Shown here: positions 8,701-54,074 of the stretch, piece after piece
How positions within the stretch are numbered: position 1 is the stretch's first letter
Layout: every line of letters starts with the position of its first letter
Origin: Basidiobolus meristosporus CBS 931.73
Lineage: Eukaryota; Basidiobolomycota; Basidiobolomycetes; Basidiobolales; Basidiobolaceae
Assembly (NCBI GenBank): GCA_002104905.1
Contig: MCFE01000406.1
Location: 1 to 64,000, forward strand
Direction: 5' to 3'
Length of the DNA stretch: 64,000 bases
Notes under the pieces: generated by a model
Database searches by the model: none
What the model was told of the DNA's origin: nothing
What the model saw: only the letters and a program-made list of their open reading frames with translations
Program-made: the position numbers and the translations under genes

Positions 8701-11700
8701 AGATCTATGAGCTGAAGACGACGATCAATACTATGGTGGACCAGCTGCAGACGTTTGCATCGGAGGTGACTCGAGTAGCTCGAGAAGTCGGGACTGAAGG
8801 AAAGCTCGGAGGACAAGCAGTAGTCAAGGATGTTGGTGGTACATGGAAGGTCCTCACAGATAATGTCAACTTAATGGCATCCAATCTCACTGGCCAAGTA
8901 CGAGATATTGCGAATGTCAGCAAAGCTGTAGCCCGTGGTGATTTATCAAAGAAAGTTACGGTAAATGTCAAAGGTGAAATGCTCGAACTCAAAAACACTA
9001 TCAACACCATGGTTGATCAGCTGCAAACATTTGCGTCTGAGGTAACGCGAGTAGCCCGAGAGGTCGGTACTCAAGGAAAGCTTGGAGGACAAGCGGTGGT
9101 CAAAGACGTCGGAGGCACTTGGAAGGACCTCACCGACAATGTGAACATGATGGCATCGAATCTTACAAATCAGGTGCGAGATATAGCAAATGTTAGCAAG
9201 GCTGTCGCCAAAGGGGACCTTTCTAAAAAGGTTACAGTGGACGTCAAAGGCGAAATCAAAGAGCTGAAGGTTACGATCAATACTATGGTGGATCAACTGC
9301 AAACCTTTGCTTCGGAAGTCACGCGTGTGGCCAGAGAAGTCGGAACTGAAGGAAAGCTCGGCGGACAGGCTGTTGTTACTGACGTTGGAGGTACTTGGAA
9401 AGACCTAACCGAAAACGTCAATATGATGGCCTGGAATCTGACAAGTCAAGTTCGTGATATCGCCAACGTTAGCAAAGCCGTCGCAACTGGTGATCTGTCT
9501 AAAAAGGTCACAGTCAATGTCAAAGGAGAGATACTGGATCTCAAATTAACCATCAATACTATGGTGGATCAGCTACGTACCTTCGCAGCAGAAGTGACTC
9601 GTGTAGCGAGAGAAGTCGGTACAGAAGGTAAACTAGGAGGTCAAGCTGTCGTTAAGGACGTTGGTGGAACTTGGAAAGACTTGACTGAGAATGTAAATAT
9701 GATGGCATCGAATCTGACAGCTCAAGTTCGAGATATAGCAAATGTCAGTAAAGCTGTAGCCCAGGGTGATCTCTCTAAGAAAATTACTGTCAACGTCAAA
9801 GGAGAAATGCTGGATCTCAAAAACACAATCAACACAATGGTCGACCAATTACAGACATTTGCTACCGAAGTCACAAGAGTCTCACTCGAAGTTGGAACCG
9901 AGGGTAAACTAGGAGGTCAAGCAATCGTTAAAGATGTTGCTGGAGTATGGAAAGAGCTCACTGATAATGTGAATATCATGGCTGAGAATCTTACGGGACA
10001 AGTAAGATCGATTGCCGAAGTGACCACGGCAGTGGCATGTGGTGATTTATCCAAGAAGATTAATGTGGACGTCAAAGGAGAAATCTATGAGCTGAAAACA
10101 ACTGTTAACTCTATGGTAGATCAACTTCGAACGTTTGCTGCTGAAGTCACTCGCGTTGCTAGAGAGGTAGGAACTGAAGGTAGGCTTGGTGGTCAAGCCG
10201 TCGTCAAAGACGTTGGAGGAACTTGGAAAGACCTAACCGATAATGTCAACTTGATGGCTTCCAATCTAACGAATCAAGTTCGTGATATCGCCAATGTTAG
10301 CAAATCGATTGTACGTGGCGACCTATCAACCAAAGTTACCGTCAATGTCAAAGGTGAAATGCTAGACCTCAAAGATACAATCAATACTATGGTCGACCAG
10401 CTGCAAACATTTGCTACCGAAGTCACCAGAGTTTCATTGGAAGTGGGGACTGAAGGCAAATTAGGCGGTCAGGCAGTTGTAAAAGATGTTGCTGGTGTAT
10501 GGAAAAATCTCACTGATAATGTGAATACAATGGCTGCCAATCTTACTGGACAGGTTCGCTCAATCGCCGCCGTTACAACTGCAGTCGCGCGAGGAGATTT
10601 GTCGAAGAAAATTTCAATTAACGTAAAGGGCGAGATCCTGGAATTAAAAGACACCGTTAATTCCATGGTTGACCAGTTGCGTACTTTCGCTGCTGAGGTT
10701 ACCCGTGTGGCGCGCGAGGTTGGAACTGAGGGTAAATTGGGGGGACAGGCCGTTGTCAAAGATGTCGACGGAACCTGGAAGGATCTAACTGACAATGTCA
10801 ATTTGATGGCCTCCAACCTAACCGCACAAGTACGTGACATCGCTAATGTCAGTAAAGCCGTCGCTTGTGGTGATCTCTCGAAGAAAGTAACGGTGAATGT
10901 AAAGGGCGAAATGTTGGATCTGAAGAGTACTATTAATACCATGGTAGATCAACTCAACTTGTTTGCCGCTGAAGTAACCAGAGTTGCCCGAGAAGTAGGA
11001 ACAGAAGGAAACCTCGGAGCTCAAGCCCAGGTCAACGATGTCCTAGGCATTTGGCAAGAAATCACAAACAACGTGAATACAATGGCGGCTAATCTAACTA
11101 CCCAAGTTCGAGCCTTTGCTCAGATCTCTGCAGCAGCTACTGATGGTGATTTCACCAGGTATATTACTGTTGAGGCGTCTGGTGAGATGGACTCTTTGAA
11201 GACGAAAATCAACCAGATGGTCTATAATCTTCGTGAGAGCATCCAACGAAACTTGGCTGCTAGGGAGGCTGCGGAACTGGCGAATAGAGCAAAAAGCGAG
11301 TTTTTAGCCAATATGTCGCATGAGATTCGTACTCCTATGAACGGCATCATTGGAATGACAGTGCTGACACTAGAATCCGATCTTACTCGCCAGCAGAGAG
11401 AAAATCTTACTATCGTAAGCCAATTAGCCAACTCTCTATTGACAATTATCGACGACATCCTGGATATTTCCAAAATCGAGGCTGGAAAGCTTGTCGTTGA
11501 GCAAATCTCATTCTCCTTAAGAAATTCGATGTTCAGCGTACTCAAGACTCTGGCAGTTAAAGCTCATCAAAAGCGGTTAGACCTCATCTATGATATCGAT
11601 AAGGATATTCCCGATCAGCTTATCGGGGATCCTCTTAGGTTACGGCAAGTTATCACAAACTTGGTGGGAAATGCCATCAAGTTTACCACCGAAGGACAGG

Positions 11701-30175: not shown

Positions 30176-32513
30176 ATGCTATTATCATCACCAGAGGCCA
30201 GCTTCTCCAGTGATCACAACACATATAAGAAATCTCGAACTAGTCGTGCTTGCGATATATGTAGAAGAAAGAAGGTCAAATGTGATGGGTTAAAACCTTC
30301 TTGTTCTAACTGCAGCACCCTTGGTTCTAAGTGCACTTACCTTGATAAGCCCAAGAAACGTGGCCCACAAACCTCTCAACCAAAAGCTCTCGAGGCACGC
30401 TTGAAGCATCTAGAGAAGTTGCTCACCTCACTTGTTGATCAGGGTGGTTCACTATCAAGTCAAGTCACTAATGAGTTGCGTTCCATCAACTCTTCACAGA
30501 CGGAGGAGCCAGAGGTATGGTAGTAGGTGTCGATTCCAGGTATTCACTGCACTAATCATCTTTTAGAATTCAAGCGAAGAGGAAGAGTCAAACCCCGAAG
30601 AAGAGGATCGTCCAACTCATTCAGATAAAATCTTACCTCACGATATCTCCTATCGATATGCCGGAAGTAGCTCTGGAATGTACTTGCTTAATGGGGAAGG
30701 AACAAACCATTCTGTTCATGATATTACGAAATTCCTCCCTGAAGTTTATGACGATCTTCCCAATTTGCCCGAAACTTTCCCCCCACCTGATTTAAGCGAG
30801 AAGTTACTGAACAATTATTTCCGACGGGCTCATCCGTACCTTCCAGTATTTCACATAGACGGATTCATGAAGAAATACAGGGAAGGAACTGTTCCTCCTA
30901 TTCTTCTTAACGCAGTGTATGCCCTGGCTTGTCTTCACTCGGGAGATTATAATCTGTTCCCAAGCATCGAAGCTTGTAACAAGTACGCCCGAATGTTCTT
31001 CCGTCGTGCCAAATCATATCTTGATTCGGAATACCATTCATCCTCTATTCCTGTGATTCAGACCTTGTTCTTGATGACATTCAGCCCAGTATCGGGGTGG
31101 CTTTTTCTAGGAATGGCCATTCGAATGGCCCAAGACTTAGGCTTGCATAGAAACATTGAGTCTCAAAACATGAGTTTAACCGAAAAAGAGGATCGCAAGT
31201 TACTGTGGTGGTGCTGTGTCACTATGGACCGCTTTTACAGCTCGGTACTTGGAAAGCCCATGTCCGTCACTAATTCCGATTTTGATACTAAACTCCCAAT
31301 GGAGATTGCAAGCCCAAATTGTGAATATTCCTTGCCCAGCCCAGCGGTGTCACTAAGATACTTCACTCATCTTATTCGCTTGACGAGTGTTATCAATCGA
31401 ATTATGAGAGAGGTTTACGGAGTTGAATCTACCGCATCCAACCAATGTGGAAAAATTCTATGGACTTTGAATCAGGAGCTGAGAGATTGGGAGCAATCGC
31501 TACCTGCTGAGTTCAAATACGACTTCTCGAAACCAATAGCGAACAACGTACATACTGTGCTACTTACGTTCTTTTGTCAGTATGGCTATATTCTATTGAA
31601 CCGCCCCTTCATTATGAAGGCCGGAAAGCACAAGAAATCGACAGCACCAGATCCGGCACTCCAAATCTGCTCGAGAGCGGCTAGTATTATGACCTTTATT
31701 TTCTTCCATACGCCGAATGGCTATAAGTTGCATGGTGTCATATTCAAAGTATCTTTCACGTTTGCGGCTTCTATGATTCATCTGATTAGTACGCTTTCGG
31801 AGAACGAGGAGATAGCGCGAACAGGAAAGGTTAATCTGTCGTTTAACCTGCGCCTTCTTCAAGAATACAAAGAAGTCTCAGCAGGGTTCGACCGCTGCTT
31901 CAAATTTATGAGCGAGATCGTTGAGAATCGTAATTTCCAAAAGGTCGATGAACTTCCTGCTGAGCCAATATTGCCACCCCCTGTCATCTTCTCACCCGAT
32001 CTTACACACAAAACCCCGAAACGAAGCGATTCTGCTGCGATTTTAATTATTCCGGAAAAACAATTGGATTCACCAGTGCTCAAGACCTCAACTGCCCCCT
32101 CACCAGCAAACTCAATGGCGAACTCGAAGCCACGCAATGCGTCCCCGCTGGAGCACAACATGAACTCGCTCACGCCAATGAACGTGAACCTAGATCAAAT
32201 CAATATAACTGACCCGATCTTCCAATACAACTCTTCACAAGCAGGCCAAGTGGCTGGCAATCTGTTTACGCCAGAGTCTTATCAGAGTTCACTGAGTTAT
32301 ATGAATCCGCAAGGAGAGATGCGCTCCATGGCAAACAACACTGTAGCAATAGGCCCCAATACTATCTCGGAGGCATACATACAGCAAGATTTTACGCCTG
32401 TAACTTTCATTGGAAACCCCCAGTTCTATAGCAATCACCAGATGGACATTAACATGCAGGAGTGGAACAACTATATTGATCAGTTTTCCAACTTTACGCC
32501 CCCTTCTATGTAA
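30176..32513 (+). CDS. Zn2Cys6 fungal transcription factor
   Basis: Two exons (30176-30514, 30567-32513) with a 52-bp intron give 761 residues. The N-terminal binuclear zinc cluster has all six cysteines (C26, C29, C36, C43, C46, C53 in CDICRRKKVKC ... CSNCSTLGSKC), a linker with KKRGP, and a short heptad region (LEARLKHLEKLL) for dimerisation. The middle holds the fungal-specific regulatory domain (YLPVFHIDGFM; GWLFLGMAIRMAQDLGLHRN; DRKLLWWCCVTMDRFYSSVLGKPM). The tail is Ser/Asn/Pro/Gln-rich and probably disordered, typical of an activation region. Acts in the nucleus on CGG-type sites. It faces the MFS gene at 33.1-34.6 kb tail to tail; whether it regulates that carrier is not shown. Confidence 0.95.
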
Positions 32514-43774: not shown

Positions 43775-45489
43775 TTAGAGTGACGAGGACATCCAATTCC
43801 TAAAATGTATCGAGTATTATATATCACCATTACGGGTACAATAGGTATTAGAGATGTGTACCTAGCCAATTCATTTTTCATTAAAAACGCTATGGCAACG
43901 GTAGATACAGAGGCTGACAGTGCCAGGACAGCAAGGATTCGATTGGCATTTTTGCCAAGATAATTGTGACGGGGGTCTCGCTTTTGGGCAGGAGGAAGCG
44001 GTTTACTGAGTATCTTGCGAACATGCTCTACATTTGGTTGATCGTCAATTCCGAGGTTTTCCCAATTCTTGCTATAAGTGTTGACTACAGATCTAAATAG
44101 AGCTACGACGTAAGTATTTGGCCTCAGTTGACGCGAAAGGGCCTTACCGCTTGGGTAGCTCAAGTCCAGCAAGCGCTTGAAGTTTACTTGGTGGATATTT
44201 CGCTAATAAATCCAATGTTTTTGATAAAAGTGCATCTACGTTTGCTCCTTGTGGGAATTTGGAGAGGAATGTATGGACCATCGCGTATTCACATTCACAA
44301 TCCAGAAGCTCATCTTTACGGCTTAACACAACCTTGAGGTGACAGTTAGAGTCAAAGAACAGATCAGCCAACAGCTTAGTCACTCACACTAGCAGCAAAA
44401 TACACCGGCGCTAATGGGTTCACCGAAAGAAAGAAATCGAACAAACGTGTAACTTTGGAAAAATCATTCAAGTCGTGGCTGCACCATGTCAGAACCCAGC
44501 TGAGACAGAAATATGGTGGTGTCTCCGATCTATTATTCACGCTGTTAAGAGGGCTTCAAGCATGTTTGGCTAAATGATTCACTTTACTTTAGTAAGAAAT
44601 TGCTGACTTGCGAATCTTCTTGCGCCAAAATGGTTTGCATCAAGGCTAGTTGGCTCATCACCGGCTCCAAGGAATCAGACATTGCATCCGTGTAGTTGAG
44701 TTAAGAATCTTGTCTAATATGGGAAATAGCAACGAGGAAGATTATACGAAACGAAAGGATATCTCAGGAAAAATAGTGCCATATTCTGGGCCGCTTCAGC
44801 AGCCTTATCTGGTCCCAAGACTAGAAGCAGACAGGTACATATGTCATGAAATCCCTAAAAGCACTGCAAATTAGAACAACAACAGCATAAATGACCAGTA
44901 TAATATCGATTGACATGCCTGGTAATAAGATAGTTCAGGATTGTTCCTTAGGACCTGGGTTATTACCGAGGTAAGTTCTTTTCGTTTTTCAGCTCGCCAC
45001 GTCTGTCGAGTATCCGCTAGATAATATTTATCAGCTGAAAATCTCCAACAATTAACAGAAAAAGTAATACCTGTGGGCAATTTTCCTAAAGATCTTTTGA
45101 CATCTAAGTCTACTTGGGATTCATCTTTATGGGGCATACCTAAGAAGCATACAACGTTACAAAATTTCCTTTTGGTAACTAATCTTCCAACGAATTACTT
45201 ATTGTAGAATTTATCTGTGTTTTATCGCAGTGAAGAATCAGAGGCCTTGATCGAGAAACCGTTATTGACGAATCGCGTATGAAACAGGCTCACATAAGAA
45301 CCAGTACCAAGATAATCTTCGAAGCCCATCATTTAGTAAACCTGGCCCAGTTGTCGCCAGCATCTTTAAGCTAGCAATATCTTTGTTGCGAATAGCATCG
45401 TTTATTAGTCCTACTCTCAGCTGTCGTTTATCTCGAGAGTTCTTGGAAGTATTGGTCCGATGGAGGGTTTTTTTCCTATGCTTAACCAT
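43775..45489 (-). CDS. TBC-domain Rab GAP, TBC1D20/GYP8-like
   Basis: Nine exons: 45489-45294, 45139-45071, 45016-44919, 44854-44763, 44689-44588, 44541-44388, 44332-44148, 44092-43862, 43799-43775; 383 residues (animal TBC1D20 about 400). TBC marks: R finger in QVDLDVKR (R81), Q finger in YYQ (Q121), then GFHDICTCLLLVLG, LSWVLTWCSHDL, RLFDFFLSVNPLAPVYFAAS, LDCECEYAMVHTFLSKFPQ. A C-terminal membrane anchor (RILAVLALSASVSTVAIAFLM) fits the ER-anchored GAP for Rab1/Ypt1. Intron 3 is GC-AG (44918-44855). Intron 4 (44762-44690) is a U12-type AT-AC intron. Intron 1 (154 bp) is the least certain: the WPxLL region reads WYWFLC, so a small exon may be missed. Without the last intron the tail would run to 43702. 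Confidence 0.88.
44690..44762 (-). other. U12-type AT-AC intron
   Basis: 73-bp intron 4 of the TBC gene. The 5' end reads ATATCCTTTC, exactly the minor-spliceosome donor, and the 3' part holds TTCTTAAC (44700-44708 on the plus strand as GTTAAGAA) 11-12 nt before a terminal CTACAC. Removal restores the family sequence FFLR-DAMSDS; no GT-AG alternative here gives an open frame. Confidence 0.85.

Positions 45490-53294: not shown

Positions 53295-54074
<780 letters not shown>

Follow-up and report, generated by a model that had tools for sequence, protein, structure and literature searches.

A predicted U12-type AT-AC intron in a TBC1D20/Gyp8-family RabGAP gene of the fungus Basidiobolus meristosporus

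In U12-type (minor) introns, the distance between the branch site and the 3' end is usually short. Fungal minor introns were the subject of a 2023 study in NAR, the authors of which are reportedly Larue and Roy. According to the available text of PMC10639083, B. meristosporus contains 249 minor introns (0.554% of its introns), which is the highest density found so far among fungi; 205 were counted in Rhizophagus, and no convincing minor introns are described there for Ascomycota and Basidiomycota. For Zoopagomycota, in which Basidiobolus is placed, the same text infers a low ancestral density of minor introns and calls it notable, so ancestral retention of the intron described here is an assumption. 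Minor introns were also reported in Rhizopus and Phycomyces in 2010 (PMC2846911). In the accessible part of that paper, U12-type introns are characterized by the absence of a pyrimidine tract, and the three AT-AC introns of Trichinella printed in it read TTCCTTAAC.

The intron analyzed here shares both species and class with those counted in the available text of PMC10639083. In its 5' splice site, branch site and AC end it resembles the U12-type AT-AC introns known from animals, plants and Rhizophagus irregularis, to the extent that these are presented in the sources at hand. It differs from the Trichinella introns in the branch site, ATTCTTAAC, which opens with A. An earlier note on this DNA placed the intron in a host outside Dikarya, which holds, and the absence of convincing minor introns from Ascomycota and Basidiomycota is as given in PMC10639083. 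The novelty implied by that note does not hold, since the 249 minor introns were published in 2023 (PMC10639083) and a splice at this site is already part of the public gene model. The finding itself is correct, and as far as species and intron class go, it is already published.

The window, i.e., the whole 64-kb stretch of DNA that was analyzed, contains the host gene listed in Table 1. Its joined exons were translated into 390 amino acids followed by a stop codon, with zero differences from protein P0001, which was retrieved with the assembled exons as query and is named 'hypothetical protein K493DRAFT_266340 [Basidiobolus meristosporus CBS 931.73]'. Because the ten joined exons translate exactly to P0001, we conclude that the AT-AC intron is already removed in the public gene model. 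The protein contains a RabGAP-TBC domain (PF00566, 65.8 bits), and the two solved sequences that it matched are both human TBC1D20 (4hl4, E 4.1e-45, and 4hlq). With this domain and with TBC1D20 as the closest match, the protein belongs to the TBC1D20/Gyp8 RabGAP family, in agreement with the earlier description of the gene as TBC1D20/GYP8-like; it resembles the family in the RabGAP-TBC domain and shows no notable difference from it. When P0001 was compared with the whole genome, eight matches were obtained at E ≤ 0.001. All of them belong to exons of the host locus, and therefore no second copy was detected at this threshold. A literature search combining TBC1D20 with minor-intron terms gave no mention of TBC1D20 among the matches listed. 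As a separate observation, intron 4 of the same gene (44855-44918, minus strand) can be placed in four ways that reproduce the public protein, none of them GT-AG; the best fit is GC-AG, GCATGT...TTTTAG.

Table 1. Coordinates of the host gene, of the AT-AC intron with its predicted signals and flanking exons, and of the second minor intron in the window.
Feature	Position	Strand	Details
TBC1D20/Gyp8-type RabGAP gene, 10 exons	43775..45489	minus	spliced translation equals K493DRAFT_266340 (P0001)
Exon 5, upstream (GFHDICTCLLLVLGPDKAAEAAQNMALFFL + split R)	44763..44854	minus	
U12-type AT-AC intron (intron 5 of 9)	44690..44762	minus	73 nt, phase 2; one of the two placements reproducing P0001
U12-type 5' splice site ATATCCTTTC	44753..44762	minus	bases 1-9 equal the consensus RTATCCTTT in the available text of PMC2846911
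U12-type branch site ATTCTTAAC	44700..44708	minus	11-12 nt before the 3' end of the intron
3' splice site AC	44690..44691	minus	placement that reproduces P0001
Exon 6, downstream (split R + DAMSDSLEPV...NFLL + split K)	44588..44689	minus	
U12-type GT-AG intron, Arf6-like gene	53891..53980	minus	90 nt, GTATCCTTTT...TATCCTTAAC...TTTTACAG

On the minus strand, the AT-AC intron stands in the context ...TTCCTGAG|ATATCCTTTC...ATTCTTAACTCAACTACAC|GGATGCAATG..., and it splits the codon context CTG-AG|G-GAT in phase 2. The branch site together with the next base, TTCTTAACT, shows one mismatch to the published UCCUUAACU, as printed in the accessible part of PMC2846911. The mismatch is a C to T change, at which G-U pairing is possible. 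The branch site is followed by TCAACTACAC, and a pyrimidine tract before AC is absent. Sequence features expected of a U12-type intron were found, namely the 5' splice site, the branch site, a short branch distance without a tract, and restoration of the reading frame. The coordinates and motifs given in the earlier note, including the 5' splice site, the branch site and the AC end, proved right to the base; the strand, on which it was silent, is minus.

Removal of the intron brought back the conserved frame with residues matching P0001, and the Basidiobolus ranarum protein P0002, which has FFLRDAMSDSLEPV at the residues corresponding to the junction, is identical there. Retention of the intron would result in a frame shift followed by a stop (LRYPFVSYNLPRCYFPY*). 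P0001 was reproduced by two single-intron placements, the AT-AC intron at 44762..44690 and its 1-nt slide, TA-CG, at 44761..44689. We also considered GT/GC..AG pairs lying between codons 150 and 180 that were at least 30 nt long and of a length that keeps the frame. None of the 11 pairs yielded LRDAMSDS, and a GT-AG or GC-AG intron at this site was ruled out on this basis. The claim that splicing restores the LRD-AMSDS frame, with no GT-AG alternative doing so, is borne out by these pairs and by the reproduction of P0001. The same 11 length-compatible pairs in and around the intron would allow an alternative isoform, in which a nearby GT-AG pair is used besides the U12-type intron. However, two of the pairs contain stops, and the remaining nine would remove the LRDAMSDSLE segment or put other residues in its place, wholly or partly, so that we regard such an isoform as very unlikely. 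The motif and the exact frame-restoring junction together make a strong case for the intron. Judged from the sequence, the stretch 44762..44690 is very probably a genuine U12-dependent AT-AC intron of the B. meristosporus TBC1D20/Gyp8-family RabGAP gene.

The pattern ATATCCTT..YTTAAC..AC occurs twice in the window, compared with an average of 0.035 over 200 dinucleotide shuffles. The second occurrence, at 11608-, was rejected as an AT-AC intron and taken as spurious, as it is antisense to a long plus-strand frame that resembles a histidine kinase on visual inspection. The region 11538-11608 (minus strand) is probably a chance AT-AC-like motif and a useful example of a false positive. Looser matches in the window were noted at 31749+, 45377+ and 10378-. 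Since one of the two window matches is taken as spurious, the motif alone is no proof. That match would also suit an explanation without any intron at 44762..44690, in which an insertion, a frameshift or an assembly error in a decayed gene coincides with a chance motif. This is scarcely credible for a gene that is otherwise intact, with nine introns, that lacks a second copy in the genome at E ≤ 0.001, and whose B. ranarum counterpart P0002 carries FFLRDAMSDSLEPV at the equivalent place. The identity of the intact ten-exon gene with P0001 and the lack of a second copy at that threshold led us to drop the pseudogene interpretation.

The loose pattern RTATCCTTN{25,55}YTTAACN{6,16}YAC was found 117 times in the whole genome, and its reversed form 54 times; therefore, a loose motif match on its own is weak. 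The strict AT pattern ATATCCTTTN{25,55}CCTTAAC gave 49 matches genome-wide, and the strict GT pattern GTATCCTTTN{25,55}CCTTAAC gave 34, each compared with 0 reversed controls. These 83 strict matches are motif pairs, i.e., candidate introns. In 30 of the 49 AT loci, we looked for 3' ends with which the joined flanks stay open in some frame; 29 loci had at least one such end, and one (L065) had none. The test was a loose one, with neither a minimum length nor a control. Could the intron instead be excised by the major spliceosome, being U2-dependent despite its AT-AC ends or non-canonical in some other way? Major AT-AC introns are known, with 85 of them in human data according to the available text of PMC8280824. 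However, nine of nine bases match RTATCCTTT, the branch site is one base off the U12 consensus and lies 11-12 nt from the end with no pyrimidine tract before AC, and the 83 strict U12 motif pairs have no reversed counterpart in the genome. We consider excision by the major spliceosome extremely unlikely and retain the assignment to the U12-dependent class.

The earlier note had predicted U11, U12, U4atac and U6atac RNAs elsewhere in the genome. The B. meristosporus genome (89.0 Mb, 1311 contigs) was searched for the minor-spliceosome machinery, and all four RNAs were matched. The U6atac match (contig C779, 63.2 bits) and two U11 matches (contigs C215 and C738, 76.8 bits each) are above the gathering score. 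The candidates for U12 (C1:278116-278270-, 46.9 bits, E 1.5e-6) and U4atac (C394, 43.4 bits, E 1.4e-4) are full length and below the gathering score of 53. The first bases of U11 are AAAAAGGGC. The two U11 copies (L003 687-820 and L004 1501-1634) are identical, with surroundings 99.2% alike over 2.33 kb; being on different contigs, they are either haplotype copies or a recent duplication. In a control set of 14 genomes, zero matches were obtained for each of the four RNAs; this control is weak because the make-up of the set is not stated and one named member, Sulfolobus, is an archaeon. An Rfam search of the window itself at gathering thresholds gave no match, and hence no snRNA was detected there.

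The search for minor-specific proteins covered PDCD7, 48K, CENATAC and TXNL4B. PDCD7, which the earlier note had named for checking, was matched over positions 187-306 of 306 with one stop inside the stretch; the score was 26.3 bits alone and 32.5 bits with neighbours, at a cut-off of 27. The U11-48K zinc finger was matched with 30 bits (cut-off 21.1), a match also seen in one of the 14 control genomes. For CENATAC, three stretches on contig C436 scored 41.2, 33.1 and 27.7 bits (cut-off 25.3), and one of them matched the solved 'Centrosomal AT-AC splicing factor' 8y6o with E 4.4e-4. The six DIM1-family stretches fall into two loci in the genome. The first is closest to Thioredoxin-like protein 4B (TXNL4B; E 1.1e-17, next 4A with 6.8e-5), and the second is closest to U5-15kD/4A. 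The TXNL4B-like gene and the U6atac gene (L080 and L002) are located about 33 kb apart on the same 63-kb contig, C779. Altogether, four snRNAs, of which U12 and U4atac scored below the gathering threshold, and four minor-specific proteins point to a minor spliceosome in this genome. In the available text of PMC8280824, the share of minor introns affected by CENATAC depletion in human cells is given as 92% for the A-type and 24% for the G-type. The presence of CENATAC in the genome fits the AT-AC intron, since the minor introns for which this protein is reported to be mainly important in human cells are those of the A-type. The existence of a whole second spliceosome had been predicted from a single intron seen in raw sequence, and this was borne out within the searches that were run. 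The finding supports Basidiobolus as a minor-intron-rich fungus that could serve for studies of minor splicing.

The following mechanism combines the sequence with established minor-spliceosome biology, starting from the observed motif, junction and machinery parts. The 5' end of U11 (AAAAAGGG) would pair with CCUUU of the 5' splice site, and U12 (GUAAGGAU) would pair with AUUCUUAAC, leaving the branch adenosine bulged. U6atac would arrive with U4atac, presumably aided by CENATAC and TXNL4B, and would take over the 5' splice site from U11. Excision would then join CTGAG to GGATGC and restore L-R-D-A-M. The duplex energy calculated for short pieces of the 5' splice site and the U11 5' end was -4.9 kcal/mol. 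For the branch site GAUUCUUAACU, the energy was -5.0 kcal/mol with the genome's U12 piece versus -3.7 kcal/mol with the consensus piece; the corresponding values were -7.9 versus -6.5 kcal/mol for GAUCCUUAACU and -6.5 versus -7.4 kcal/mol for GUUCCUUAACU.

The U12 candidate (L001 1501-1655, minus strand) reads GAGUAAGGAUAAUAACG, compared with GAGUaAGGAAAAuAAcg in the Rfam consensus. Its branch-site-pairing stretch is GUAAGGAUAAU versus the consensus GUAAGGAAAAU, which is a single A-to-U change in a candidate scoring below the gathering threshold. In the duplex, the altered position would lie opposite the first base of xUCCUUAAC. This first base was counted in the 83 candidates, which were selected by motif from the B. 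meristosporus genome alone and some of which probably come from duplicated contigs. The facing base was A in 35, T in 30, C in 10 and G in 8 of them. The share of A (35/83) was compared with the 27% mean A content of the four preceding bases (binomial p 0.0027). Among the 57 candidates with T as the next base, the facing base was A in 28 (p 4.3e-4) and T in 18; against the xTCCTT background elsewhere in the fetched loci, 28/57 gave p 0.002. After removal of identical tails, A was found in 32/77 (p 0.004). In the AT subset, A made up 20/49 (p 0.012) and T was commoner (21/49), and in the GT subset the result was not significant (A 15/34, p 0.09). The facing base is A in the AT-AC intron (ATTCTTAAC, outside the 83) and in the intron of the Arf6-like gene (inside the 83).

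The excess of A is suggestive only, T being about as common. It is conceivable, though on balance somewhat improbable, that a U12 base changed in Basidiobolus and that branch sites moved along with it, giving ATCCTTAAC beside the usual TTCCTTAAC, i.e., snRNA-intron co-evolution. If true, RNA and introns would have co-evolved within the very fungus whose minor-intron density is the highest known; if upheld by a proper comparison, the change would offer a small example of such co-evolution that can be put to the test. In a literature search on fungal U12 coevolution, the point was not named among the matches listed, as far as their available text goes, which is no proof that it is unpublished. 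The U12 change with a re-pairing branch-site preference may be unreported.

The single 64-kb window holds two minor introns, one in the TBC gene and the other in the Arf6-like gene. With its fuller middle motif, the latter (53980..53891) reads GTATCCTTTT...GCTATCCTTAACCC...TTTTACAG. Its removal joins ACT A|CC and gives GKTTILYKL, with the junction at GKT|TILYKL. The assembled protein has 180 amino acids and matches ADP-ribosylation factor 6 (2a5d, E 8.7e-99). The branch-to-end distance in this intron is 23-24 nt, which is on the long side of the usual U12-type range.
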